This document shows positions 154 through 12,256 of a stretch of DNA of 12,256 bases, in pieces; position 1 is the stretch's first letter, and each line of letters opens with the position of its first letter. This DNA is from Clostridia bacterium (GTDB taxonomy: Bacteria > Bacillota > Clostridia > UMGS1883), in contig JAFSBF010000154.1 of NCBI GenBank assembly GCA_017441965.1, positions 1-12,256 on the forward strand, read 5' to 3'. The notes under the pieces are model-generated. The model was not told the DNA's origin and made no database searches. It worked only from the letters and a program-made list of their open reading frames with translations. A program made the position numbers and the translations under genes.

Positions 154-731
154 CCAATCAGTAGAACTTTACAAGCAAGAATAAAAAAATAGTAGAGCAT
201 ATTGAAAATTTCTTGTAAAATGGAATTGACGAGAAACCATGTACAAGGAGAAATCTAGAGTTAGGAAATCAGAACAAAAAAGATACGGAAAAGAAAACAG
301 GTTGCTTTTAAAAAACTCTAAGAGAATACTTACAAAACGAGCCTTTAAACTAAAAGATGAACAGAAACAACGTGTAAATGCTATTTTATATATCAGTGAT
401 GCCTTAAGAGAAGCATATATACTAAAAGAGATGTTGTATGAGGTCTGTGATTGTACAGACAGAGCCGGCGCAAAGGCTATGTTGGAAGAATGGATATATT
501 CGGCACAAAAAAGCGATTTAAAGGACTACCACGATTGCGCCAATACATTGTTAAACTGGCAAAAGGGTATTTTAAATTCATTTGAAGTCACATATACTAA
601 TGCATTCACCGAAGGCTGTAACAACAAGATTAAAGTATTAAAGAGAAATGCTTATGGCTATCGCAATTTTGAACGATTCAGAAAACGCATATTACATATG
701 TTCAGATACAAAAGCGAAAAAGCAAAACTAA

Positions 732-753
732 TGCGGCAGCCTAAGCTGCCGCA
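732..753. terminator. Hairpin inside the IS end, possible bidirectional terminator
   Basis: A perfect 9-bp stem, TGCGGCAGC (732-740) and GCTGCCGCA (745-753), has a CTAA loop. On the minus strand it is followed by TTAGTTTTGCTTTTT, a moderate T-rich tract. It could therefore end transcripts leaving the aldolase gene, with about 40 bases of IS sequence in between. The + strand tail is less T-rich. No better terminator is seen after the operon. Confidence 0.5.
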
Positions 754-770
754 CCAATTCCATTTTATTT

Positions 771-794: not shown

Positions 795-1469
795 TTAAAA
801 GTCAAGTATTGTCTTATCCCCGTAAACCGATGTCCAGTCTCTTTCAAAGCCTTTTATCGCCGCATCTGTCATAGGATGAGAGATAACCGCCTTGAGGATT
901 TTCGGGTCAACGGTTACGCAGTGACAGCCTGCCGATGCACATTTATGTACCTGCTCGGCATTTTTGAAGCTTGCAACCAAAACCTTGCAATCGCTGCCGT
1001 AATGGGCAAGCTGCCTTACAATTTCAGCCGCAACCTCTGTTCCGTCACCGATAATGTTATCGAGTCTGTTTACATAGGGGGCAACAAAGCTTGCTCCTGC
1101 CTTTGCCGCAATAAGTGCCTGCGGAGGTGTGAATATTGCAGTCATTGTAACACCTATTCCAAGCTCCTTAAGGCGCATTGTTGCCTTAAGTCCTTCTTCA
1201 CAGATAGGAATTTTCACGTAAAAGCCGCCCTCTAATTTTTCTTTGAGGAGCTTTGCTTCCTCTACAATCTTTTCAGCCTCTTTCTGCGTTGTCTGAACGT
1301 GAAGCATCTTATCCTTTCCGATTATCTCCCTGATTTGTGTAACCAGTTCCCAGAAGTCTGTATGCTCCTTTGCAATAATCGAAGGGTTGGTTGTAACGCC
1401 CGCAAGAGGGTAATATTCGTTACAATACCTTATTGTTTCAATATCAGCAGTATCCAAAATATACAGCAT
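795..1469 (-). CDS. Fructose-6-phosphate aldolase / small transaldolase-like protein
   Basis: This 224-residue class I aldolase belongs to the FSA/TalC group, whose members are about 215-225 residues long. It carries GVTTNPSI at 24-31, the Schiff-base lysine K86 in VKIP, T110, and VAPYVNRLDN at 129-138. Aligned by eye to E. coli FsaA, it keeps Gln59, Thr110, Ala130 and Tyr132, the residues that separate true fructose-6-phosphate aldolases from transaldolases, which carry Glu and Phe. That favours reversible cleavage of a ketose phosphate into a dihydroxyacetone-type donor and an aldehyde phosphate, over transfer between sugars. The ribosome site AGGAGG lies 7 bases before the ATG. It is the last gene of the operon, 19 bp after the kinase. 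Its TAA abuts the IS end, so the original downstream region has been replaced. The true substrate may be another sugar phosphate. Confidence 0.88.
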   Translation of the reverse strand: MLYILDTADIETIRYCNEYYPLAGVTTNPSIIAKEHTDFWELVTQIREIIGKDKMLHVQTTQKEAEKIVEEAKLLKEKLEGGFYVKIPICEEGLKATMRLKELGIGVTMTAIFTPPQALIAAKAGASFVAPYVNRLDNIIGDGTEVAAEIVRQLAHYGSDCKVLVASFKNAEQVHKCASAGCHCVTVDPKILKAVISHPMTDAAIKGFERDWTSVYGDKTILDF

Positions 1470-1488
1470 ATGTCTTCCTCCTATGATG

Positions 1489-2892
1489 TTATTTCCTTAC
1501 GTTAAGTATGCTGTCATACTTAACGAAGTTTTCATATACCTTTGTATAATCATTACCCTGCGGTGTGTAAACCTTGTCGGTTTCAATCATAGCACAGGCT
1601 TCTTTAACAGACTTAAACTCACCTGCACCCACCCCTGCAAGAATTGCTGCGCCGAGACAGGCAGTTTCCTTGTTTTTAAGTGTAATGAGGCGTTTTTTTG
1701 TAATATCAGCCTTCATATTGCACCAGAGCGGGCTTTTTGCACCGCCACCCATAACACGGATTTCATCCACATCAGTGCCGAGATAGTCAAGATTACTCTT
1801 GAGCATACACGCAACTGACTCCATAATACTGCGTACAAAATGTGCCGTATTATGCTCGGGCGTAAGTCCTGTGAAGCTTCCGCGTGCATCGGGGTTATAT
1901 TTAGGCATTGTAGAGCCGCACAAATACGGTAAAAAGGTTACTCCGTCACTTCCAACACTGACCTTTTCTGCCAGAGCATCAAGGTCTTTGAAAGAAACAT
2001 CAGGGAGGAATGCCTCCTTAAACCATTTTAATGCCATACCTGCCGTCGGACTCCACGAAAGAAGTGCGTAGCTTCCATCAAAGCTATAGTGACACGGCAC
2101 AAAGCTATCCTCTTTAAACTCGGGCACACTGTCCGTAGGAAGATAAATAGCCATTGTAGTACCCGTCATAACACTGCAGATACCCTTTTCTATAACGCCT
2201 GCACCGATTGCACCTGCAACCTGGTCCATTGCAGAGGTGATAACCTTAATTCCGTTATACTCCCCTACATACTTACCGCTGTCCATAAGGGCGGGAAGCA
2301 TATCTTTCTCCACACCTATGAAGCCGAGCATTTCATCCCAATATTCTGATGTATTAATATCAAAATAAATTGTTGATGACTGAAGGGTTTTTTCTGTCAC
2401 AAACTCGCCCGTAAGCTTATAGAGAAGATAATCCTCAAGCAGGAAAATTTTCTTCGTCTTAGCCCATATCTCAGGCTCGTTGCGCCTCACCCACAAAAGC
2501 TTACTTGCAGGCCAGGTAGCCGTGATTTCAGGCTGACCTGTAACCTCATAAACCTTCTTACGTCCGAAATGCTCCTCGATAATACGTGCCTCTTCCTCTG
2601 CACGGTTATCAAGCCATACGATTGCATCACGCACAGGCTCACCGTTTTCATCGGTAAGAATAAGAGTTTCACACTGTGTATCAATTGCAAGAGCATCTAC
2701 CTTTGCAGTTTTCTCTACATTTGCAAGGGCATTTTTAAGAAGGCTCCAGTATTTCAGCGGCTCCAGCTCTACAATATTTCCGCTGGTCTTAACTGTATAA
2801 TCCTCGGTAGAGGAAGCAAGCTCACGAAGTTTCTCGTCAAACAGAACTGCCTTTACCGAGGTTGTTCCAAAGTCAATTCCTAAAAGATTCAT
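1489..2892 (-). CDS. FGGY-family carbohydrate kinase
   Basis: This 467-residue protein has the two-domain actin-like FGGY fold and would phosphorylate a sugar or polyol with ATP in the cytoplasm. The N-terminal phosphate loop is DFGTTS (7-12), WLDNR is at 93-97, the catalytic base is probably D223 in AMDQVAGAIG, and the C-terminal ATP-site motifs are TGTT (243-246), GGGAKSPLW (382-390) and ETACLGAAILAG (409-420). It resembles xylulokinase most in general layout. However, the GQMHG substrate motif typical of XylB is replaced by IDTQCET around 70-76, so the substrate is probably not D-xylulose. It starts 5 bp after the YjbQ gene, with only a weak purine-rich site (AAGAGA), which suggests translational coupling. 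The neighbouring aldolase and isomerase-like genes point to a ketose or tetritol/pentitol route. The family is certain and the substrate unknown. Confidence 0.85.
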   Translation of the reverse strand: MNLLGIDFGTTSVKAVLFDEKLRELASSTEDYTVKTSGNIVELEPLKYWSLLKNALANVEKTAKVDALAIDTQCETLILTDENGEPVRDAIVWLDNRAEEEARIIEEHFGRKKVYEVTGQPEITATWPASKLLWVRRNEPEIWAKTKKIFLLEDYLLYKLTGEFVTEKTLQSSTIYFDINTSEYWDEMLGFIGVEKDMLPALMDSGKYVGEYNGIKVITSAMDQVAGAIGAGVIEKGICSVMTGTTMAIYLPTDSVPEFKEDSFVPCHYSFDGSYALLSWSPTAGMALKWFKEAFLPDVSFKDLDALAEKVSVGSDGVTFLPYLCGSTMPKYNPDARGSFTGLTPEHNTAHFVRSIMESVACMLKSNLDYLGTDVDEIRVMGGGAKSPLWCNMKADITKKRLITLKNKETACLGAAILAGVGAGEFKSVKEACAMIETDKVYTPQGNDYTKVYENFVKYDSILNVRK

Positions 2893-2897
2893 AGCAC

Positions 2898-3518
2898 TTA
2901 TCTCTTAAGCTGAAGGTCGTAATGAACGTCATACGCCTTTTCTTCGTCTGTATACTTACGCTTTGTATCGATAACTTCACCGTTATTCCACTTTCTGTCC
3001 TCAACAGCCTCAGTAGTACCCATAACAGTTACGTTAATCTGTCTTCTTCTTGCACGTACGTGATCCCAGTCAATAAAGTAAACATGTGCAAATTCGCCAC
3101 CGTCAAGAACGCCGTCCTTGATTGTCATAGCTTCGCTTCTGCCGAAGAATACACTGCGAAGATGTCCGTCTGTGTTCATACTTGTGTAGTCACCGGGCTC
3201 GTTTACGTATCTTCCGAACTGTGAATGGATGGGGCCGGGATGACGGTACTGATGCTCCTCTGCAAAGTCAGGAATCATCTTTCTCATAATATCGAGAAGA
3301 TCATGCTGAAGGTACTCAAGATCAAATGAATCGATATCGTGTGAGCACTCCTGAACCATAACTGAACAGGTTGTGTGATGTGATGCGATTGTAACAGTAC
3401 CATTCTTAACACCTGAAGCTGCTACTATTTCCATAACCTCTTTTGAAATGTCGTGGAATGTGGGTATCCAACCTCTTGACTGAACTTCCAATTCCTTCTG
3501 AAATACTTTAAATTCCAT
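2898..3518 (-). CDS. YjbQ/UPF0047 family protein, extended form
   Basis: This 206-residue protein belongs to the YjbQ (UPF0047) family. Visible family features are QSRGW at 13-17, HHTT at 47-50 with E57 following, HD at 72-73, and the conserved tail from GHLRSVFFG (118-126) through the DGVLDGGEFAHVYFIDWDH region to a basic RARRRQINVTVMGT. E. coli YjbQ is about 138 residues. The extra length here is an insert near 88-113 (rich in His and Pro) and a charged tail after about 170. Some family members have weak thiamine-phosphate synthase activity, but their real role is unsettled. A good site, TAGGAGGA, precedes the ATG by about 7 bases. The gene follows a 226-bp repeat-rich gap and lies just upstream of the sugar kinase. 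Its placement suggests a part in sugar-phosphate handling or in supplying TPP precursor to the E1 enzyme; neither is shown. Confidence 0.85.
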   Translation of the reverse strand: MEFKVFQKELEVQSRGWIPTFHDISKEVMEIVAASGVKNGTVTIASHHTTCSVMVQECSHDIDSFDLEYLQHDLLDIMRKMIPDFAEEHQYRHPGPIHSQFGRYVNEPGDYTSMNTDGHLRSVFFGRSEAMTIKDGVLDGGEFAHVYFIDWDHVRARRRQINVTVMGTTEAVEDRKWNNGEVIDTKRKYTDEEKAYDVHYDLQLKR

Positions 3519-3540
3519 AATTAAATCCTCCTAAATTTTT

Positions 3541-3750
3541 ATATTTCTCCCATTTTGGGAATTATGAGCGTGGGGATTGTTAAGGGCACTCCCTTAACGA
3601 TTAAATCCGTTAAAATCGGGGGCGTGTACCTCGATTTTAACTCCTTGCGTGGGCTGGTGCGGTGAGCACCGCGCGAGCGTAAGCCCACTTGTCGAAAGTA
3701 AATGTTTTGCAGGGCAAAACTTTGCTTTCGAGAGGATGACCTTGTCATCC
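3541..3750. repeat. Cluster of five to six consecutive hairpins between the SIS and YjbQ genes
   Basis: This gap of about 226 bp in the operon is almost wholly palindromic. A small TCCCA/TGGGA stem spans 3548-3560. Stem A, GTTAAGGG/CCCTTAAC, spans 3579-3598. Stem B, GTTAAAATCG/CGATTTTAAC, spans 3609-3641. Stem C, GTGGGCT/AGCCCAC, spans 3649-3688 and encloses GGTGC/GCACC (3656-3670), giving a branched fold. Stem D spans 3692-3731: TCGAAAG then AAA then GTTTTGC, all paired, with one bulge and an AGG loop. Stem E, GGATGAC/GTCATCC, spans 3734-3750 and overlaps the last codons of the SIS gene. No stem is followed by a clean T tract, so these are not simple terminators. It looks like a dispersed repeat (REP/MITE-like) or a structured leader or processing region in the operon mRNA. 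The short reading frame across it has no family resemblance. Confidence 0.7.
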
Positions 3751-4338
3751 GTTTAATCGCTCGCCTACTGCGCCGCCCGGATGAACAAGGGCAAACTGCT
3801 CATTCTGGAAATTTGTTTCCTCAATAAGCATTGTCTGCAGCACATGGAAAATCACCGCAAGCGATGTTGAAGATGTTGTTCCCTGACAGTTATACTTGTC
3901 CGTTTCACGGTTTACATACTGCTTAAGAACAACGTCTGCCTCTTTCGCAAGGGGGGACTCCATATTTTCAGTAACGGTTATAATTTTAACACCCTTCTTT
4001 TTGCAGATGTCAACAAGTGTCAAAAGCTCCTTTGTCTTGCCGCCGCGTGATGCAAATACCATTACATCACCCTCCTGCAAAAAGCCTGTTGCACCGTGCG
4101 GTCCCTCTGCAGGTGAAATAAACCTTGCAGGCTGCTCTATGCAGCACATAAGATGCGCAAAATGCTGACATATAATGCCGCTGTGTCCGCATCCGCTTGA
4201 GCCTATTCTCGGCGCATTTTTGAGAAGCTCTACCGCTTTAGAGTAAGCTTCCTCGTCAAAATATTGTGCCATCTCGGCAATACACTGGCTCTCTGTTATG
4301 TAAGCCTGTCTTGCCATTTCAAGTGCTTCTTTTTTCAT
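3745..4338 (-). CDS. SIS-domain sugar-phosphate isomerase-like protein
   Basis: This 197-residue protein is a single SIS domain, like the N-terminal half of KdsD/GutQ arabinose-5-phosphate isomerases without their two CBS domains. Family landmarks are the first loop SSGCGHSG (47-54), SPAEGPHG (75-82, compare HPAEA.HG), the phosphate loop ASRGGKTKE (96-104), a GTTSST segment at 153-158, and VHPGGAVGERL (185-195). H81 and H186 match the catalytic histidines of KdsD. The loop lysine of KdsD (GKSG) is His52 here, and the usual SNSGE loop is SRGGK, so the same reaction should not be assumed. It probably interconverts an aldose and a ketose phosphate, or binds one. The ribosome site AAGAGG is about 11 bases before the ATG, rather far. 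Repeat-rich gaps lie on both sides, unlike the rest of the operon, and its stop lies inside the last hairpin of the downstream cluster. Confidence 0.82.
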   Translation of the reverse strand: MKKEALEMARQAYITESQCIAEMAQYFDEEAYSKAVELLKNAPRIGSSGCGHSGIICQHFAHLMCCIEQPARFISPAEGPHGATGFLQEGDVMVFASRGGKTKELLTLVDICKKKGVKIITVTENMESPLAKEADVVLKQYVNRETDKYNCQGTTSSTSLAVIFHVLQTMLIEETNFQNEQFALVHPGGAVGERLNG

Positions 4339-4360
4339 AATTACGTAAACCTCTTCTTAG

Positions 4361-4454
4361 TTCGAAGTTCGAAATTCGAAGTTCGAAATGATTGTTGATT
4401 TTCGCAGTGCGAAAATCTTCCAACACTTCGCATTCCGCATTTCGCATTTCACAT
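4361..4454. repeat. Two blocks of four 7-bp tandem repeats flanking a perfect hairpin
   Basis: Positions 4361-4388 are four exact units of TTCGAAR (R alternates G, A, G, A). Positions 4427-4454 are four units TTCGCAT, TCCGCAT, TTCGCAT, TTCACAT. Between them is a perfect 9-bp hairpin, GATTTTCGC AGT GCGAAAATC, at 4397-4417. The array fills most of the 131-bp gap between the TPI-like and SIS genes and sits inside the operon mRNA. It resembles short heptanucleotide repeats that expand by slippage; any function, such as mRNA processing, protein binding or phase variation of spacing, is unknown. No gene is seen in this gap. Confidence 0.85.
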
Positions 4455-4469
4455 TATTTTTAATATTTT

Positions 4470-5171
4470 TTATGCGTTGCACTCATCCCAGGCCTTACGA
4501 AGATTGAATAACATTTCCTCAACCATTTCATACGGTCTGTCAGATTTCATAATACCGCTTGTTGTACCTGTTGCCTGAGCGCCAAGCTTGATTGTGTTGT
4601 ATACGTCCTGACCGTTGGAAATTCCCGCACCCTGAAGTACCATTATATCGGGATTGATTTCACGAACAGTCTTGATTGTTTCAACAACGTAGTTACTGTC
4701 ACTTGTCTGACCTGTACCGATAAGGTCTGTAGGCTCTGCCACGATAAGGTTGGGTCCCATCTTGGCAATTTTCTTAACATCTTCAACAGTATCGGCACAA
4801 ACAATTGTACCAAGACCAACCTCGTCAGCTCTTGCAATTGTTTTTTCGATTTCTTCCAATGTAAGAGGCTTTTCAGCATGGTTAAGCATTACACCAACCG
4901 CACCTGCAGCCTTTACAGCCTCGGGAAGAACGCTGCCTAATCCCCTGCCGGGTGTCAGGTAGTCCATATGCTGCGCAAATACTAAAATTCTTTCAGTATT
5001 GTCAGCAAGAAGCTTAATATCTGTATACTGCGGAGTAACGATTACATCAACATCGTACTTCATTGCAGTCTTGTCAATTACCTGTGCAAGCTTAAGCATT
5101 TTTTCGCCGTACAAAAATGCTTTGGGACCAACCTCGAAGAAAGGCGGTTTTATCTTTAAATCCTTGTACAT
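4470..5171 (-). CDS. Triosephosphate isomerase-like protein (archaeal-type), altered active site
   Basis: This 233-residue TIM-barrel protein aligns along its length with the short archaeal-type triosephosphate isomerases (about 220-230 residues). Landmarks are TPQYTDI (46-52), FAQHMD with catalytic H68 (65-70), GAVGVMLNHAEKPL (90-103), VAEPTDLIGTG with catalytic E146 (144-154), GAGISNGQDV (181-190) and a C-terminal phosphate loop TGTTSG (201-206). The usual N-x-K motif with the catalytic lysine reads G-P-K (K17), and NHSE reads NHAE, so Asn and Ser of the canonical enzyme are lost while Lys, His and Glu remain. This suggests isomerase chemistry on a different phosphorylated ketose, as for the tetrulose-phosphate isomerases of erythritol operons that belong to this superfamily. 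That comparison is inference. AAAGGAG lies 10 bases before the ATG, and the gene follows the metallo-hydrolase gene by 19 bp. Confidence 0.85.
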   Translation of the reverse strand: MYKDLKIKPPFFEVGPKAFLYGEKMLKLAQVIDKTAMKYDVDVIVTPQYTDIKLLADNTERILVFAQHMDYLTPGRGLGSVLPEAVKAAGAVGVMLNHAEKPLTLEEIEKTIARADEVGLGTIVCADTVEDVKKIAKMGPNLIVAEPTDLIGTGQTSDSNYVVETIKTVREINPDIMVLQGAGISNGQDVYNTIKLGAQATGTTSGIMKSDRPYEMVEEMLFNLRKAWDECNA

Positions 5172-5190
5172 AAATTTTACACTCCTTTAT

Positions 5191-5811
5191 TTAAAACACT
5201 AATGTCTGTCCTATTTGAGGAATATGAAGAGAGGAATCGCTCCCTGCCGTTTTCTCAACCGCATCCCAAAGCGCGTACTCGTCACACTCACGCTGCGGCA
5301 GATGAAGAAGCACTATCTCCCCTGCTCCAAGGTTTTTTGTAATCTGCCACGCAGAAGAAGTAATTGCATACGCATACGGTACAATCACTACATCAGGTTT
5401 TGGAAAGCTATCTGCATTTTTCCACATAAGCGGTGATGCATCACCCATAAACCATACACATTTGCTGCCGCTGATAATATAGCTTATATGGGAAATATCT
5501 GTCTTTCCTATATGTCTGGTGGAAACTGCCTCGATTTCTATGTTTTGTGTAACCTTTGGCGGTAAACACTCAGGCCCGTAAACGGGTCTGAGTGTTTTTA
5601 TCCTATATTCCTCTGCATAATTCTCATCATAATGATCCTTATGCATATGTGTAAACGCTACAACGTCAGGGGGATTTTTTATAAATTGCTCACGAAAATG
5701 GTGCGGTGTTCCCGCATAAGGCGCAAGCTCCTGCGCCACGCCGTCAAGCAGAAACGATACACCGTCAAGTAAAAGCAATACCCCTGCATTTGCCGTCCGC
5801 GTAATTTCCAT
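5191..5811 (-). CDS. Metallo-beta-lactamase-fold hydrolase (UlaG-like group)
   Basis: This 206-residue protein is a small MBL-fold enzyme. The metal-binding signature THMHKDH gives H55, H57, D59 and H60. Further likely ligands are H100 or H108, D124 in FMGDAS, and H170 in LLHLP. The order matches the short COG2220-type hydrolases; UlaG, an L-ascorbate-6-phosphate lactonase, is a longer relative, but lactonase activity here is only a guess. No signal peptide is seen, so it is cytoplasmic. Its ATG overlaps the TAA of the E1 gene by one base (TAATG), which indicates translational coupling to E1. It could hydrolyse a sugar lactone or a thioester/ester intermediate, or remove a side product of the dehydrogenase. 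Confidence 0.82.
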   Translation of the reverse strand: MEITRTANAGVLLLLDGVSFLLDGVAQELAPYAGTPHHFREQFIKNPPDVVAFTHMHKDHYDENYAEEYRIKTLRPVYGPECLPPKVTQNIEIEAVSTRHIGKTDISHISYIISGSKCVWFMGDASPLMWKNADSFPKPDVVIVPYAYAITSSAWQITKNLGAGEIVLLHLPQRECDEYALWDAVEKTAGSDSSLHIPQIGQTLVF

Positions 5812-8276
5812 TATACACCCTTCTGAGCACGGCGAAGAGCCTCAGCCTCTGTGCAGCCGTTTTCTACAGTGTGTCCGGGAAGCGGAACGAGCTTTTCATG
5901 GATTGCATCAATAATCCAGCCTGCCTGCGGGAAGAAGTATTCGTCAAATTCGAACGGAGGTGTTATCCAGTTGCGTGCGCCTACTACTACGGGCGGTGCA
6001 TCAAGATCGTCGAAGCAAAGCTCTGTGATGTTCTTTGCAACGTCATTTAAGAATGAACCACGTGCACATGCATCTGAAACGAGGACAACTCTGCCTGTCT
6101 TCTTCACAGACTCAATAATCTTGGTATAATCAAGCGGTACAAGAGAGTGAATGTTAATAACATCTGCCTCCATACCGTATTTTTCGCTAAGCTGCTTAGC
6201 AGCATCCATAGCGCGGTAAAGTGCCGCACCGATTGTAAGGATTGTAACGTCCTTACCGTCACGAACCTTATTTGTATCACCAAATTCGATTTCATAACGT
6301 TCAGCAGGAACACCGCCTTCGTGGAACTGCTCACCAACGTCATAAATTCTCTGGCTTTCAAAGAATACAACGGGGTCAGTACCCTTAAGCGCTGATTCCA
6401 TAAGACCCTTTGCCTCCCAAGGTGTTGCGGGGAAGCAAACCTTAAGTCCGGGGATATGTGCACAAAGTGCTGTCCAGTCCTGAGAGTGCTGCGCACCATA
6501 CTTAGAACCGACAGATACACGAAGAACTACGGGCATCTTAAGTATGCCTGCACTCATTGCCTGCCATTTTGACATCTGGTTAAAGATTTCGTCACCTGCG
6601 CAGCCGATAAAGTCAGCATACATAAGCTCTACGAGTGCACGTCCGCCTGAAAGTGCGTAACCAACGGCTGTACCTACGATAGCAGCCTCGGCAATGGGTG
6701 AGTTAAAGAGACGGCAATGCGGGAATGCGTCCATCATACCACGGTATACTGCAAACGCACCGCCCCAGTCACGGCAGTCCTCACCGTATGCGATAAGTGT
6801 GGGGTCTTCATAGAAACGGTCATATATAACCTCGCTCATTGCATCACGAAGGTTAAAGAGCTTCATCTTTGAAACGGGCTTTCCATCAACAACGGGGCAG
6901 CGTTCCTTTTCCTTAAGCTTCTTATATGCAGGAACTTCATTAAGAGGCATATTAACCTCAGGCTCACGGTCATCAAACTTCTCAACCTTTTCGTTTGAGA
7001 ACATCATACGTTCAACAACCATAGAATCCTTCTTGAAATCTACATAGGGGCTTACCTCTACATCTGATGCAGCCTTGCAAATCATTGTCATACGCTCAGC
7101 GGTGTTTGCAAGAATAGCTTCAAGGTCGCTATCGCCTGTAACACCTGCTTCAACAAGACCCTTACGGTATGTGATAATCGGGTCGATTGCCTGCCAAGCT
7201 TCGATTTCTTCCTTAGTACGGTACGCGTTCTGGTCAGATACAGAGTGACCGCTGTAACGGTATGTAAGTGTATCGAGCATAACGGGACCTTCACCCTTAC
7301 GGAGAATTTCAAGCTTACGCTCCATAGCATCAATAACTGCAAGCGGATTGAAACCGTTTACTCTTTCAGCGTGGAACTGCGTCGGGCTTACACCTGAGCC
7401 GATACGTGCAAGCATATCATAACCCATTGTTTCACCTCTGGTCTGGTCGCCCATACCGTATGAGTTATTGAATACGTTATAAAGAATGGGCATACCACCC
7501 TGATGGCTTTCCCAAAGTGTGTGGAACTGGTCCATAGCAGCAAAGTTCATTGCCTCCCAAACGGGACCGCGTGCCATTGAGCCGTCACCGCTGTTACAAA
7601 CAACGATACCCTGCTTGCCGTTAACCTTCTTAAAGAGTGCCGCACCTGTTGCAATTGCAGCAGAGCCGCCAACGATAGCATTGTTGGGATAAATACCAAA
7701 GGGCAGGAAGAATGCGTGCATTGAGCCGCCCATACCCTTATGGAAGCCTGTTTCACGGGCAAATATTTCAGAAAGTGTTCCGTAAAGGATAAAGCGGATT
7801 GCAAGTTCCTTTACGTCATCAACCTTGCCAAGCTTTTCTGTCGCACGAAGAGCACTACCACCAAGGAAGCCCTCCATAATTGTCATGAGTTCCTGCTCGC
7901 TGAGCTTGTGTATGCAGGAAAGTGCCTTTGCAAGGATTTCACTGTGGCTACGGTGTGAGCCGAAAGAAAAGTCGTTCTGGTCAAGAAGATAAGCCTGACC
8001 AACTGCAGCAGCCTCCTGACCTACAGAAAGGTGAGCAGGACCGGGATATGTAGTTTCAATTCCGTTATACACACCCTGTGTCTTTATAAGGCTGAGCATA
8101 GACTCAAACTCACGAAGAACAGTAATGTCACGGTAAATACGAACAAGGTCATCATCACTGTAACGCTTACGCTCGTCCTTGATTGTTTTGTTATAGACAT
8201 TTACGGGAATGTCCTTAAAGGTAATTTTGCCGGGAGCCAAGGTCTCGACGGGATCTACAAATAAACTCTTAGGCAT
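5811..8276 (-). CDS. TPP-dependent dehydrogenase E1, fused alpha and beta subunits
   Basis: This 821-residue protein joins both E1 subunits of a 2-oxoacid or acetoin dehydrogenase complex. The alpha part (about 40-400) carries HRSHSEILAKA (108-118), GFHKGMGGSMH (177-187), the TPP/Mg motif GDG (230-232) to NN (270-271), and the loop YRYSGHSVSD (339-348). The beta part (about 470-821) carries YGED (497-500), the catalytic glutamate E530 in PIAEAAIVGTAVGYA, and GAQHSQDW (594-601). A linker near 405-470 connects them. E1 decarboxylates or cleaves the substrate on TPP and hands the acyl group to the lipoyl arm of E2. About 40 extra residues (near 120-165) lie between the alpha HxxH region and GMGGSMH compared with ordinary E1 alpha, and a short insert lies before NN. 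The substrate could be pyruvate, a branched oxoacid, acetoin or a related acyloin. AAGGAGG precedes the ATG, and the gap to E3 is 13 bp. Confidence 0.9.
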   Translation of the reverse strand: MPKSLFVDPVETLAPGKITFKDIPVNVYNKTIKDERKRYSDDDLVRIYRDITVLREFESMLSLIKTQGVYNGIETTYPGPAHLSVGQEAAAVGQAYLLDQNDFSFGSHRSHSEILAKALSCIHKLSEQELMTIMEGFLGGSALRATEKLGKVDDVKELAIRFILYGTLSEIFARETGFHKGMGGSMHAFFLPFGIYPNNAIVGGSAAIATGAALFKKVNGKQGIVVCNSGDGSMARGPVWEAMNFAAMDQFHTLWESHQGGMPILYNVFNNSYGMGDQTRGETMGYDMLARIGSGVSPTQFHAERVNGFNPLAVIDAMERKLEILRKGEGPVMLDTLTYRYSGHSVSDQNAYRTKEEIEAWQAIDPIITYRKGLVEAGVTGDSDLEAILANTAERMTMICKAASDVEVSPYVDFKKDSMVVERMMFSNEKVEKFDDREPEVNMPLNEVPAYKKLKEKERCPVVDGKPVSKMKLFNLRDAMSEVIYDRFYEDPTLIAYGEDCRDWGGAFAVYRGMMDAFPHCRLFNSPIAEAAIVGTAVGYALSGGRALVELMYADFIGCAGDEIFNQMSKWQAMSAGILKMPVVLRVSVGSKYGAQHSQDWTALCAHIPGLKVCFPATPWEAKGLMESALKGTDPVVFFESQRIYDVGEQFHEGGVPAERYEIEFGDTNKVRDGKDVTILTIGAALYRAMDAAKQLSEKYGMEADVINIHSLVPLDYTKIIESVKKTGRVVLVSDACARGSFLNDVAKNITELCFDDLDAPPVVVGARNWITPPFEFDEYFFPQAGWIIDAIHEKLVPLPGHTVENGCTEAEALRRAQKGV

Positions 8277-8289
8277 TTTTTATTCCTCC

Positions 8290-9657
8290 TTATATATGAA
8301 AAATTGCTTCTCTGATAATTTCTGCAACCGTCGGATGCGGGAAGACGAGCTTCTGCAGACGGTTTGGTGTCATTTCTGTATCTACCATCATTGTAGCAGT
8401 CATAATAATTTCTGATGCGTATGAGCCTACCATATGGCAGCCTACAAGGCGTTTCTTGTCCGTATCAACAACAAGCTTTATAAAGCCCTTGCCGCCTTCT
8501 GTTTCTGCAAGGTATCTGCCTGCATAGGACATCGGAAGCTTAACTTCCTTAACCTTCATACCCTTTTCCTCTGCATCGTTCTTGCTAAGACCAACACTTG
8601 CAACCTCGGGGTCAGTATATATAACGGAAGGAATTACATCATAACGCATTTCGTCATTCTTTCCAACCATATGATTTACTGCAACCTCTGCCTCTCTGTA
8701 GGCAGTATGTGCAAGCATCAGCTTACCGTTACAGTCACCGATAGCATAAACGCCTGAAACATTTGTGCAGAGGTGACGGTCTGTCTTTATTGCCGCTCTG
8801 TCCATATCGAGCTGAAGAGTCTCAAGACCGATATTTGCAGTAGACGGCTTACGTCCTGCGGAAAGAAGAACTTTATCGCACTTTATTTCCTTCTTTTCGC
8901 CGTTTTCTTCATATATAACACTGTCTTTCTTAACCTCAAGCACTTTGCAGGAAAGCTTGAACACCATACCCCTCTTTTCAAAAGCATCGGTGAGCACCTT
9001 ACAGATTTCGGCATCTGTCGCACCTGCAATTTTGGGCATCATTTCAATAACAGTTACCTTTGTACCGACACTTGCAAAGTAATACGCCATTTCAAGACCT
9101 ATTACACCGCCGCCGATAACAACCATTTCCTTTGGAAGTGTTTTTTCGTCAAGCACCTCGCGGTTTGTAACCACAAAGCCGCTCTCAAGACCTTCCTTTA
9201 AACCTGGAACAGGCGGAACAACTGTTTCTGAGCCTGATGCAATTACAAGCTTTTTACCTGCATAAACAGTTCCGTCTGCCTCAACTAAAAAACCGTTTTC
9301 GTCCTTACCCTTAACAGTAGCATTTGCACTGATAACGGTAACCTTGTTCGCCTTCATAGTAGCGCCCACGCCTGAAACGAGAGTTTTAACAACCTTATCC
9401 TTTCTGTCAATAACCTTTGCGTGGTCGTATTTTACGCCCTCGGCAGTAACACCGAATGCCTCGCTCTCTTTTGCGTGGCGATACATTTTTGATGAATTAA
9501 GAAGTGTCTTTGTGGGGATACATCCCTCATTAAGGCAAGTACCGCCAAGAGCCTTCTTTTCAAAAACAGCCGCTTTAAGTCCATTCTGGGAAGCTCTTTC
9601 TGCGCACAGATATCCGCCGGGGCCGCCGCCCAGAACCAATACGTCAAAAATTTCCAT
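8290..9657 (-). CDS. lpdA: Dihydrolipoyl dehydrogenase (E3)
   Basis: This 455-residue flavoprotein reoxidises the dihydrolipoyl arm of E2 with NAD+. It has an N-terminal FAD fold with GGGPGG (10-15), the redox disulfide GGTCLNEGC (C41 and C46), a second nucleotide fold with VIGGGVIGLEMA, the FAD motif YAIGDCNG, and the C-terminal catalytic pair HPTVAE (H441, E446). The length is that of E3 without an extra lipoyl domain. Gap spacing is 19 bp after E2 and 13 bp before E1, so the three complex genes run in the order E2-E3-E1. GGGAG precedes the ATG by about 8 bases. The enzyme is well conserved in all key residues and should be active. The symbol follows the family; it may be specific to this complex (acoL-like). 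Confidence 0.95.
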   Translation of the reverse strand: MEIFDVLVLGGGPGGYLCAERASQNGLKAAVFEKKALGGTCLNEGCIPTKTLLNSSKMYRHAKESEAFGVTAEGVKYDHAKVIDRKDKVVKTLVSGVGATMKANKVTVISANATVKGKDENGFLVEADGTVYAGKKLVIASGSETVVPPVPGLKEGLESGFVVTNREVLDEKTLPKEMVVIGGGVIGLEMAYYFASVGTKVTVIEMMPKIAGATDAEICKVLTDAFEKRGMVFKLSCKVLEVKKDSVIYEENGEKKEIKCDKVLLSAGRKPSTANIGLETLQLDMDRAAIKTDRHLCTNVSGVYAIGDCNGKLMLAHTAYREAEVAVNHMVGKNDEMRYDVIPSVIYTDPEVASVGLSKNDAEEKGMKVKEVKLPMSYAGRYLAETEGGKGFIKLVVDTDKKRLVGCHMVGSYASEIIMTATMMVDTEMTPNRLQKLVFPHPTVAEIIREAIFHI

Positions 9658-9676
9658 ATCAATATCTCCCTATATT

Positions 9677-10924
9677 TTATTTAGCAAGAAGCATTGTAAA
9701 GTTTTCAAGATTGTAACCGAGTTCCTTCTGGAAACGTGCCGCAGGAGTTCCGTCTACTGCACGGTGGTCATATGTAAGGCTAAGTCCCATTGCAGGATAA
9801 ATCTTAATCTCGCCGTCCTTACCCTTCTTAACACGCTCAATTGTGCCGCAAACACCAAGTATTCCCGTCTGCGGAGGATTGATAACGGGTGTAAAGGACT
9901 CAACTCCCATATTACCGAGGTTTGAAACTGTAAATGTACCGCCTGAAAGCTTATCGGGGCTGATATTACCCTCACGGCACTGTGCGGCAAGCTCCTTAAC
10001 CTCTTTTGAAATTTCAAGAAGACTCTTCTGGTCAGCGTTAAAGATAGTGGGCACCATAAGTCCTCTTGGTGTATCCACCGCAACGCCAAGGTTTACGTGC
10101 TTAAAAAGTCTGATATTATTGTCATCAAGCATATGTGCATTCAAATCAGGATGATTTAAAAGCGTTCTTGAAACTGCATACAAAACTATATCGCCAAGTG
10201 TAATACCGCTGCACTCACCCTCAGAAGCCTTAAGAAGCTTTCTGTATGCGAGTATTGCAGTAGCATCAAATGATGTATTGTGTGTAAGCTGTGCCATTGT
10301 AGAAAGTGAAGTATGCATAGACTTGCTGATAGCACGGCGGATACCGCTGAACTTAACATCCTCATACTCCTGCTCAGGTACTGCTGCTGCAGGTGCAGCC
10401 GCAACCTCTGCCGCCTTCGCTGCCACAGGATTTTCCATAAGCTCTCTTACATCGCGTTCAATAATTCTTCCGTTAGGGCCGGTAGGTGTTGCCAGTGTTG
10501 CATCCACACCTGCACGCTCCGCAAGCTTTTTCGCTCTGGGAGAAACGGCAGTCTTTCCATCCGCACTTACAGTCGGAGCTATAGCTGCAGGTGCAGCCTC
10601 CTTCTTAACTTCCTCAACAGGAGCCGCTACAGCTTCCTCCTGTGCACCCTGCGCTCCGTCAGGACGCAGTGCACTGCAATCCTCACCGGGATTACCAACT
10701 GCACACACATTCATAAGACACGGAACCTCGTCCCCGTCTTCAAAGAAAATTTCGAGTAATGTACCCTCTGCAGTAGATTCACATTCAAAGCTTGCTTTGT
10801 CAGTTTCGTATGTGAATAAAATGTCGCCGACCTTTACAGCGTCGCCAACCTTCTTTTCCCAATTACCGATAATACAGCTTTCAACAGTAATACCGGCTTT
10901 GGGCATAATTACAGCATTAGCCAA
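9677..10924 (-). CDS. Dihydrolipoyl acyltransferase (E2)
   Basis: This 415-residue protein is the core of the dehydrogenase complex. It has one lipoyl domain (about 1-78) with the modified lysine K43 in ETDKASFE, an Ala/Pro/Glu linker (95-122), an E3/E1-binding domain (about 126-161, VSPRAKKLAERAGVD), a second Ala-rich linker (165-185), and the catalytic acyltransferase domain ending in YDHRAVDG (H387 and D391). The start is TTG at 10924, not ATG: it gives the expected MANAVIMPKAG opening, and GGGAGG stands 8 bases upstream. The first ATG, at codon 7, would cut into the lipoyl domain. It is the first gene of the operon, 33 bases after the -10 box. It transfers acyl groups to CoA. Acetyl, acetoin-derived or branched acyl specificity cannot be read off. 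LplA near the right edge could load the lysine. Confidence 0.93.
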   Translation of the reverse strand: MANAVIMPKAGITVESCIIGNWEKKVGDAVKVGDILFTYETDKASFECESTAEGTLLEIFFEDGDEVPCLMNVCAVGNPGEDCSALRPDGAQGAQEEAVAAPVEEVKKEAAPAAIAPTVSADGKTAVSPRAKKLAERAGVDATLATPTGPNGRIIERDVRELMENPVAAKAAEVAAAPAAAVPEQEYEDVKFSGIRRAISKSMHTSLSTMAQLTHNTSFDATAILAYRKLLKASEGECSGITLGDIVLYAVSRTLLNHPDLNAHMLDDNNIRLFKHVNLGVAVDTPRGLMVPTIFNADQKSLLEISKEVKELAAQCREGNISPDKLSGGTFTVSNLGNMGVESFTPVINPPQTGILGVCGTIERVKKGKDGEIKIYPAMGLSLTYDHRAVDGTPAARFQKELGYNLENFTMLLAK

Positions 10925-10956: not shown

Positions 10957-10985
10957 ATTATAACATAACTTAACATTCCCGTCAA
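10957..10985 (-). promoter_or_regulatory. Promoter of the dehydrogenase/sugar operon
   Basis: Read on the minus strand, TTGACG (10980-10985) and a perfect TATAAT (10957-10962) are separated by 17 bp, a strong SigA-type promoter. Transcription would start near 10950, leaving about 26 bases before the TTG start of E2. The putative operator overlaps its spacer and -10 box. Confidence 0.85.
10958..10975 (-). promoter_or_regulatory. Putative DeoR operator at the operon promoter
   Basis: Minus-strand sequence TGTTAAGTTATGTTATAA. It matches the site at 11864-11881 at 15 of 18 positions, in the same orientation and overlapping the -10 box in the same way. It is built as two TGTTA units 10 bp apart. 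Binding is inferred from this sharing and from the adjacent regulator gene. Confidence 0.65.
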
Positions 10986-10999
10986 TTACTTTTATACTA

Positions 11000-11038
11000 A
11001 AAAACAAAAAAGAATTGCCTTAAATGACAACTCTTTTT
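11000..11038 (-). terminator. Rho-independent terminator of the regulator gene
   Basis: On the minus strand AAAGAGTTGTC and GGCAATTCTTT pair over 11 bp (two G-U pairs) around an ATTTAA loop, followed by TTTGTTTTTTAG. Read on the + strand the G-U pairs become mismatches, so the signal is strand-specific. It lies between the regulator stop and the operon promoter, which separates the two transcripts. Confidence 0.8.
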
Positions 11039-11074
11039 CGTCAAAATATACAAATTTTCACCAAGCACACAAAG

Positions 11075-11824
11075 CTACATTATAGTAACTCCGCTTTCCT
11101 TTGCCGCAACAACATACTCCTCGGGCATCGGTTTATCGGTTATAACATAATCCACATCCTTGATTGTTGCGAAGGTATACGGCATAAGTCTTTTTAGCTT
11201 TTCATTTCCGCACATAAGCACACTCGTGCGCGCCTTTTCTATAACAAGCTTTTTCACAAGCATATCCGCCTCCGTTCCGCAGGTAAATCCCACGTCGGCA
11301 GAGCATCCCGAAACACCTATAAAGGCAATATCTATATTGATATTTTTGAGCATTTCAAGTGTATTCTGACCGCAAACAGACTGATTATTACGGTTAAGCG
11401 TGCCGCAGCACATAGTAACCACAGGATTTGACAGATGACACAGTTCCAGTGCTATTCCCGGACTTGTGGTTATAATATTAAGGTTTATGTCAGGCAGATT
11501 TTTTGCGATGAACAGGTTTGATGTTCCGGCGTCAAGGAACACGCAGTTGTGCTGCTGCATAAGCGACAGTGCCTTCTGCGCCATATTAAGCTTACCGGGG
11601 TTATTGTCACGCAGACGGACACTAAACTCCATATCGCCCATCTGATGAACAAGCTTTACCCCGCCGCGGTACTTTGCCAGAAAGCCCTGCTGTTCCAGAG
11701 CATCAAGGTCACGGTGAAGCGTCATCAGCGAAATATCGGGGATAAGCTCGCGCAGTTCCTTTATTGTAGCTACATTTTTATCATCTAAATATTCCTTTAT
11801 CCGTTCTCTGCGAATGCGGTTCAT
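11075..11824 (-). CDS. DeoR/GlpR-family transcriptional regulator
   Basis: This 249-residue protein, of normal DeoR length, has an N-terminal winged helix (about 5-58), with VATIKELRELI and the recognition part ISLMTLHRDLDALEQQG, then GG at 54-55. A C-terminal sensor domain of the sugar-phosphate-binding type follows, with FLDAGTSN, the TTSPG loop, GVSGC and a CGTEAD motif. Such regulators usually repress until a phosphorylated sugar binds. The ATG at 11824 is chosen over an upstream ATG at 11842: AGGAGG stands 5 bases before it and would be coding sequence if translation began earlier. It has its own promoter and terminator, and a likely operator shared with the operon, so it probably regulates itself and the operon. 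The inducer is probably a sugar phosphate made by the operon enzymes; that is inference. Confidence 0.92.
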   Translation of the reverse strand: MNRIRRERIKEYLDDKNVATIKELRELIPDISLMTLHRDLDALEQQGFLAKYRGGVKLVHQMGDMEFSVRLRDNNPGKLNMAQKALSLMQQHNCVFLDAGTSNLFIAKNLPDINLNIITTSPGIALELCHLSNPVVTMCCGTLNRNNQSVCGQNTLEMLKNINIDIAFIGVSGCSADVGFTCGTEADMLVKKLVIEKARTSVLMCGNEKLKRLMPYTFATIKDVDYVITDKPMPEEYVVAAKESGVTIM

Positions 11825-11863
11825 AATACCCTCCTGAGGCATTTGTATTATTTTTTACACCTT

Positions 11864-11988: not shown

Positions 11989-12256
11989 ATGATTGACACA
12001 CTTCAAATATATATAGCACGTTCCTTTGACCCGTACGAAAATCTGGCGGTTGAAAAATATCTTCTCGATACAGTGTCGGAAAACGCGTGCACTCTTTATC
12101 TGTGGCAGAATGAAAATACAGTTGTTATCGGCAGAAATCAAAATGCCTGGGCGCAGTGCCGGACCTCTCTTCTCGAGGAGGAGGGCGTGCGCCTTGCACG
12201 CAGACTTTCAGGTGGCGGTGCCGTTTTTCACGATTTGGGAAATCTTAACTTCACAT
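11989..12256 (+). CDS. lplA: Lipoate-protein ligase A (5' part, cut by window edge)
   Basis: The first 89 codons are present and run off the window. The protein opens [10 protein letters not shown] and carries the family landmarks [13 protein letters not shown] (14-26), [13 protein letters not shown] (45-57) and the lipoate/lipoyl-AMP-binding stretch [19 protein letters not shown] (71-89). LplA activates free lipoate with ATP and attaches it to the lysine of lipoyl domains, here plausibly K43 of the E2 protein. AGGTGA stands 4 bases before the ATG at 11989; an ATG at 11970 is followed by an in-frame TGA after three codons and is rejected. It is divergent from the regulator gene, with its own promoter. 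Full length is normally about 330 residues, so roughly three quarters lies beyond the window. Confidence 0.93.

Follow-up and report, generated by a model that had tools for sequence, protein, structure and literature searches.

Why should the genes of a complete lipoyl-dependent dehydrogenase lie in one operon with those of sugar-phosphate enzymes? The question is raised by a 12,256-nucleotide stretch of a Clostridia bacterium genome (GTDB lineage UMGS1883; assembly GCA_017441965.1, contig JAFSBF010000154.1; hereafter the window), where genes for E2, E3 and a fused E1 are followed by genes for a metallo-beta-lactamase-fold (MBL) hydrolase, a triose-phosphate-isomerase-like (TPI-like) protein, an SIS-domain isomerase, a YjbQ protein, an FGGY sugar kinase and a fructose-6-phosphate-aldolase-like (FSA-like) protein. 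The answer we favor, and to which we give about an even chance, is that the complex, rather than oxidizing pyruvate, splits an acyloin derived from a sugar. The predicted substrate is a 1-deoxy-2-ketose phosphate, and the products would be acetyl-CoA, an aldose phosphate and NADH. The first-pass annotation of the window had offered such cleavage as one of two hypotheses; it gains support from the distinct E1 clade and from recurrent sugar-related neighbors in Clostridia and alphaproteobacteria, with the substrate a prediction.

The fused E1 forms a clade of its own

The dehydrogenase is specified by three genes:
5811..8276, minus strand: fused alpha-beta E1, 821 aa (PF00676, PF02779, PF02780)
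8290..9657, minus strand: E3, dihydrolipoyl dehydrogenase (TIGR01350 483.7 bits, cut-off 408.8)
9677..10924, minus strand: E2, 415 aa, TTG start (lipoyl PF00364, E3-binding PF02817 and acyltransferase PF00198 domains)

Between them they supply the parts of a lipoyl-dependent 2-oxoacid/acyloin dehydrogenase, namely a thiamine pyrophosphate (TPP) E1, an E2 with lipoyl, E3-binding and acyltransferase domains, and an E3. Against the curated alpha-subunit models of pyruvate dehydrogenase (PDH) E1, the window protein scores 200.4 (TIGR03182, cut-off 393.85) and 141.3 (TIGR03181, cut-off 411.35), missing both. A tree of 37 rows built from matched frames (21 family members and 16 references) unites all 21 fused E1s, those of Clostridia and those of alphaproteobacterial plasmids alike, in a single clade with a support of 100/100 and a stem branch of 1.91. 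Outside it fall one branched-chain 2-oxoacid dehydrogenase (BCKDH) E1, two acetoin E1s (L199 and L214, both verified by context in operons with a sigma-54 regulator and an NAD-kinase-like gene) and two PDH E1s, the only PDH rows in the tree, both long-branched and one with a truncated beta part. By its sequences the fused E1 is a separate, deep-branching clade, apart from the reference PDH, BCKDH and acetoin E1s. Membership in the acetoin dehydrogenases was rejected on the position of L199 and L214 in another clade.

Three histidines that we take to be catalytic (82, 344 and 597) are retained in the family. The segment KYGAQHSQDW surrounds His597 in 21 of 21 family rows and in none of the 16 references, and E113 occupies a position where 11 of the 16 references have histidine; together with Y540, Y593, D600 and W601, which likewise lie beside the retained histidines, it is rare among the references. 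Substitutions so placed would fit a different substrate. The structure model of E1 (mean pLDDT 79.8), whose low-confidence stretches include active-site loops, was not used for substrate claims.

Sugar-related genes recur beside E1

The neighborhood survey kept 80 clostridial E1 loci out of 450 found, with flanks of up to 10 kb that are often truncated by contig ends. E2 lies near E1 in 74 of the 80 and E3 in 59, accompanied by a DeoR-family regulator (38), the lipoate ligase LplA (36), an MBL gene (29), a SorE-like gene (29), a PHP-like or HAD phosphatase-like gene (23) and a SorD-like gene (12, or 11 without a distant short-chain dehydrogenase/reductase (SDR) in L047); the partners seen in the window are rarer, with TPI and SIS in 5/80 loci, YjbQ in 4/80 and FSA in 2/80. 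Three plasmid genes annotated as sorE, L-sorbose 1-phosphate reductase, share 52-53% identity with the SorE-like protein, and E. coli genes, one of them annotated as yggP, a zinc-binding dehydrogenase, share 56%. The SorD-like protein of L157 exceeds the curated sorbitol-6-phosphate dehydrogenase cut-off (391 of 307); that of L195 (243) does not. All four loci of genus g118 (L156, L157, L159 and L164) combine SorE-, SorD-, PHP- and rhamnulokinase-like genes, the one kinase scored reaching 519 of 528 bits, and three of them carry an L-fucose isomerase (one scored, 948 of 775). Among 60 relatives SorE was matched in 16 genomes and the fused E1 in 20, and 15 of the 16 SorE genomes have E1 (14/15 by genus).

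Some loci vary in other ways. In L020, L021, L030, L031, L033, L037 and others, the interval between E2 and E1 gave no match to an adjacent E3, and the E2 of L032 has about 530 aa. Methylenetetrahydrofolate reductase (MTHFR) is found near E1 in nine of the 80 loci (L023, L031, L033, L034, L037, L041, L043, L044 and L055), where it could either process a one-carbon product or be present by chance, through synteny within a single clade. A frequent member of the sugar module is g18, a conserved protein of about 496 aa (L184, L183, L137, L139, L188, L189 and others) that had no NCBIfam match at E 1e-15; in L187 a transporter matches PgtP weakly (65 of 408 bits).

The fused E1 also occurs in 16 plasmid records, at 53-54% identity over 96-97% of its length. 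Five of these regions were read, from Pleomorphomonas, R. johnstonii pRL8, R. leguminosarum, Rhizobium sp. RCAM05350 and Agrobacterium pAt15955. In each of them the genes after E1 encode a lipoyl-type protein and an alpha/beta hydrolase, and a sugar kinase lies within about 10 kb of it; four of the five have an annotated sugar transporter. The best model for the three hydrolases tested is AcoC, the acetoin dehydrogenase acetyltransferase (159-202, under the cut-off of 307), against which the window E2 scores 60.9 bits. The pRL-type kinase resembles a fructokinase and the epimerase a D-psicose-3-epimerase, both with scores under cut-off. Judged by profile, the plasmid sugar operons pair a TPP E1 with an acetoin-type E2, which suggests that the complex cleaves an acyloin derived from a sugar.

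Many E1 genomes have a TPI-like gene, and most a PFOR-model match

Across 341 sampled genomes of the class, the fused E1 was matched in 65 (45 of 202 genera) and the TPI-like gene in 42. Both are present in 26 genomes where about 8 would be expected (Fisher 3e-11), a statistic inflated by kinship; the corresponding genus-level test among relatives gives 4e-4. At the level of loci, TPI is near E1 in the five cases counted above, in four arrangements, against about 0.2 expected under a rough model of random placement (genomes of 2.3 Mb, 40% of them with TPI). In the survey that the first-pass annotation had suggested, E1 and TPI thus share genomes, while TPI and SIS are scarce beside E1.

A model of pyruvate:ferredoxin oxidoreductase (PFOR) matches 326 of the 341 genomes at E <= 1e-50, exceeding its cut-off in 282. 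Of the 65 E1 genomes, 59 match the PFOR model (51 with E = 0), so the fused E1 is usually not the sole candidate pyruvate oxidizer. In the window's genome a PFOR piece scoring 351 bits lies at the end of a contig.

A candidate route from deoxy-sugars to acetyl-CoA

SorE and SorD act as a keto-shift pair: through a hexitol phosphate, they transfer the ketone of a hexose phosphate between C2 and C5. In the distant Clostridia, L-fucose isomerase and the rhamnulokinase-like kinase would make a ketose-1-phosphate, which the SorE-like/SorD-like pair would reduce at C2 and re-oxidize at C5. By our own stereochemical derivation, this keto shift would turn L-fuculose-1-phosphate into 1-deoxy-D-tagatose 6-phosphate, a methyl-ketone acyloin with the type of bond that is broken when TPP E1 enzymes act on acetoin. 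E1 would bind this compound through TPP and E2 would transfer the acetyl group to CoA, with formation of NADH, leaving a tetrose phosphate. In the lineage of the window, the FGGY kinase, SIS, TPI-like and FSA-like proteins may instead supply the ketose phosphate and consume the aldose phosphate, replacing the keto-shift pair.

PMC2962223 states that L-fucitol (1-deoxy-D-galactitol) could be enzymatically oxidized to 1-deoxy-D-tagatose. No paper among the matches listed in the open-licence literature links this E1 clade to sugar catabolism. The scheme as a whole, a deoxy-sugar route spanning phyla in which the keto shift of a 6-deoxyketose 1-phosphate precedes cleavage by a dedicated E1-E2-E3, and in which FGGY, FSA, SIS and TPI genes act as substitutes on the same transcript in the window's lineage, we hold to be possible though unlikely.

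Competing explanations

Several findings weigh against acyloin cleavage, and some of them speak for its chief rival, a divergent pyruvate dehydrogenase that oxidizes pyruvate from the sugar route and is tied to the sugar genes by regulation only. Among solved structures, the best sequence matches of E1 are PDH and BCKDH beta subunits, and its domains are those of such enzymes; Foldseek ranks 2-oxoacid dehydrogenases and transketolase together for the predicted E1 fold. E2 is nearest to PDH acyltransferase models, albeit below cut-off (TIGR01349 280.6 of 445), and a DeoR regulator with a lipoate ligase would suit any lipoyl complex. The tree carries a warning that long branches may meet, and several reference branches are long, which makes any exact sister group of the fused-E1 clade tentative. 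Of the 65 E1 genomes 39 lack the TPI gene, and of the 42 TPI genomes 16 lack E1; the two lie within 20 kb of each other in one of the 26 class genomes that have both, that of the window. Eight of the 59 PFOR-model matches, including that of the window's genome, are weak or partial and may represent other oxidoreductases. A search for SorE gave no match in the window's genome (G000, 86.6% complete) or in same-genus G002 and G005, so that the operon's own genome lacks the keto-shift step, and the Pfam match of the PHP-like protein is under cut-off (24.5 of 26.4). Finally, an ordinary fucose/rhamnose route may run in the FucI-bearing genomes, where class II aldolases exist. Such aldolases are present in 14 of 16 genomes searched, in some cases next to what by eye resembles an L-rhamnose isomerase gene; absence of FucA/RhaD, considered as proof of a new route, was accordingly not obtained.

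The pyruvate explanation, the other hypothesis of the first-pass annotation, stays a live rival that we consider unlikely. It is weakened by the PFOR-model matches, by the placement of E1 on a long branch outside both reference PDH rows and by its scores under both PDH E1 alpha cut-offs, and it leaves unexplained the recurrent SorE-like and phosphatase-like neighbors, the AcoC-like E2 of the plasmids and their sugar transporters. A complex that cleaves a small acyloin, acetoin or hydroxyacetone, fed or produced by the sugar genes would account for the AcoC-like acyltransferases of the plasmid members, one of which is annotated as acetoin-cleaving; FSA enzymes accept hydroxyacetone as a donor, the SorD-like SDR of L157 also matches butanediol dehydrogenase (225 of 270, under cut-off), and the neighboring MTHFR could process a released C1 unit. 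That SDR, however, scores far higher to sorbitol-6-phosphate dehydrogenase, acetoin would have no need of sugar kinases or phosphatases, and the context-verified acetoin E1s belong elsewhere in the tree, all of which makes a small acyloin quite improbable. Very improbable, in our estimate, is that two unrelated operons without a common pathway were joined by chance or by an error of assembly. The sugar genes do stand apart in three same-genus genomes (G001, G002 and G005), and adjacency within 20 kb holds in one of the 26 class genomes that have both; yet the junction between the modules is 19 bp long, with a ribosome-binding-site-like sequence and intact genes, a near version exists in a same-genus genome (G003), TPI is near E1 more often than the rough placement model predicts, and the two share more genomes than expected, though that excess is inflated by kinship.

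Origin of the join

In G001, G002 and G005, the genes for TPI, SIS, YjbQ, FGGY and FSA form a separate cluster with a DeoR-type gene alongside, to which G001 and G005 add an SftI-like isomerase. The cluster and E1 are on different contigs in G002 and G005, and G001 gave no match to the fused E1 family. The near version in G003 has the order E2, E3, E1, MBL, second DeoR, TPI, SIS, YjbQ and FSA, without an FGGY gene. Its MBL-TPI interval contains a hairpin with a T tail (-21.8 kcal/mol, z -5.5), which the consensus scan did not list, and, with the second DeoR, two promoter-like sites matching the consensus at 12/12. At the corresponding 19-bp junction of the window, the hairpin, regulator and promoter of G003 are absent. 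We infer that terminator, regulator and promoter were lost between the modules, bringing the sugar genes under the promoter that precedes E2. The first-pass annotation had feared that the set might be found only in this genome: this is so for the exact set, but the near version, with its own regulator and promoter, occurs in G003. The join of E1-E2-E3 to the sugar module is lineage-specific, and the partnership is loose.

Layout of the operon

The window is contig C146 of a 1.34-Mb genome in 228 contigs. Ten genes, the DeoR gene and the nine from E2 to FSA, lie on its minus strand. Besides the three dehydrogenase genes, the features are:
723..762, minus strand: terminator-like hairpin closing the operon (18 pairs, T tail)
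795..1469, minus strand: fructose-6-phosphate-aldolase/transaldolase-like (FSA-like) protein (PF00923 172 bits)
1489..2892, minus strand: FGGY sugar kinase, xylulokinase-like (PF00370/PF02782)
2898..3518, minus strand: YjbQ/UPF0047 protein (PF01894 85.1 bits)
3745..4338, minus strand: SIS-domain phosphosugar isomerase, KpsF-like, short (197 aa; PF01380 69.8 bits)
4470..5171, minus strand: archaeal-type TPI-like protein (NF003302 199.9 bits, cut-off 132)
5191..5811, minus strand: MBL hydrolase (PF13483 30.1 bits, cut-off 24)
10957..10985, minus strand: sigma-70-like promoter predicted for the E2-to-FSA unit (TTGACG-17-TATAAT, consensus match 11/12, extended -10 (TG))
11003..11042, minus strand: terminator-like hairpin in the DeoR/E2 interval (17 pairs, T tail)
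11075..11842, minus strand: DeoR-family regulator upstream of the operon (PF00455 138.5 bits, PF08220 33.6 bits)
11989..12256, plus strand: lipoate-protein ligase, partial, divergent and cut by the contig end (in-frame translation; 54% to an LplA relative)

The gene set from E2 to FSA is all present, on the minus strand and at about the positions first given. The gaps from E2 to FSA measure 19, 13, -1, 19, 131, 226, 5 and 19 bp; the description of gaps of mostly 19 bp or less holds for six of the eight, the two longer ones separating TPI from SIS (131 bp) and SIS from YjbQ (226 bp). The claim of one promoter agrees with a strong promoter-like site before E2, a hairpin setting DeoR apart and a strong terminator-like hairpin after FSA, and a single transcript from E2 to the FSA-like gene is predicted from these signals. 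Within the unit, minus-strand hairpins are all short (5-7 pairs), with one of them intergenic (3720-3704, between SIS and YjbQ), and there are several weaker promoter-like sites inside genes. The consensus scan gave 28 promoter-like and 20 terminator-like sites in total, a modest excess over the 22.5 and 11.6 of shuffled DNA.

By eye, the long gaps 3519-3744 and 4339-4469 contain inverted and direct repeats, perhaps a small repeated element. On the plus strand, a tRNA gene (14-84; Rfam tRNA, 57.5 bits) is followed by a terminator-like hairpin (89-116), and an open reading frame (239-874), by eye the C-terminal part of a transposase, overlaps the end of the FSA-like gene on the opposite strand.

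Proteins of the sugar module

The HxHxDH motif of the MBL hydrolase is invariant in 27 of 27 aligned rows, and Foldseek places its predicted fold (pLDDT 94.9) nearest to those of an isothiocyanate hydrolase and further metallohydrolases with MBL folds. Because MBL fills the slot right after E1 that a HAD gene occupies in 11 of the 80 loci, our guess is a hydrolase of a phosphate or ester product. The TPI-like protein exceeds the cut-off of the short-TPI subfamily model NF003302, and among structures it comes closest to short TPIs, for example 1hg3 and 2h6r. The SIS protein scores 116.4 bits to TIGR00393 (under the cut-off of 203.7) and has an unnamed SIS protein as its closest match, followed by phosphosugar and arabinose-5-phosphate isomerases. 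The FSA-like protein falls slightly under curated cut-offs (TIGR00875 218.6 of 245.95; NF009299 211.3 of 214), with FSA entries 9v4b, 9lkp and 8s7h heading its structure list, and the FGGY kinase reaches 326.3 bits with the XylB model TIGR01312, short of the 380.25 that would class it as a xylulokinase.

An autoinducer-2 (lsr) route had been suggested by a plasmid regulator matching LsrR (112 of 486) and by one binding protein annotated for autoinducer-2. It was set aside, the kinase scoring twice as high to XylB as to LsrK (NF008187 166.2 of 528, which does not qualify it as LsrK).

YjbQ itself lies slightly below its model cut-off (TIGR00149 64.5, cut-off 67.75). In L008 and L036, two YjbQ-type genes share one sugar cluster, at about 79-89% and 39-44% to the window's YjbQ, and the family seems to have split within the sugar-cluster pathway.

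Relation to known systems and significance

The complex resembles the pyruvate dehydrogenase complex in its domain make-up, its TPP and lipoyl parts, its retained histidines and the nearby lipoate ligase; unlike it, its E1 is one fused chain of a separate clade with signature residues of its own and sugar-phosphate neighbors, in genomes that usually have a PFOR-model match. With acetoin dehydrogenase AcoABCL it shares its dependence on lipoate and, in the plasmid relatives, a split, AcoC-like E2, but the E1 clade differs and the neighbors are sugar kinases, transporters and sugar-type regulators. Resemblance to the L-sorbose operon lies in the SorE-like and SorD-like pair beside E1 in relatives, where, unlike in that operon, the pair is joined to E1-E2-E3; the window has no such pair. 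The sugar module of relatives, with a distant SftI relative and an FSA-like aldolase, is reminiscent of the sulfoquinovose transaldolase pathway (SftI/SftT), from which it departs in its FGGY kinase, TPI-like, SIS and YjbQ genes and in an SftI model score of 79.3 of 700; no SftI-like gene is found in the window. Transketolase and phosphoketolase use TPP to cleave a ketose phosphate into a two-carbon unit and an aldose phosphate. In the cleavage proposed here, by contrast, the two-carbon unit would reach CoA through lipoate, with NADH.

In summary, the E1 family, widespread and with sugar partners, is more interesting than the single window. If acyloin cleavage is true, it would amount to a new way of breaking down sugars: lipoyl complexes would do more than oxidize 2-oxoacids and small acyloins, and one clade of them would take acetyl-CoA directly off sugars. 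The current names of the clade (dehydrogenase, alpha-ketoacid dehydrogenase, acoB) would be corrected, and the orphan YjbQ family would gain a possible setting. Many named relatives of the fused E1 come from gut and rumen, according to their record titles, and the yields predicted for deoxy-sugar fermentation in these environments would change.

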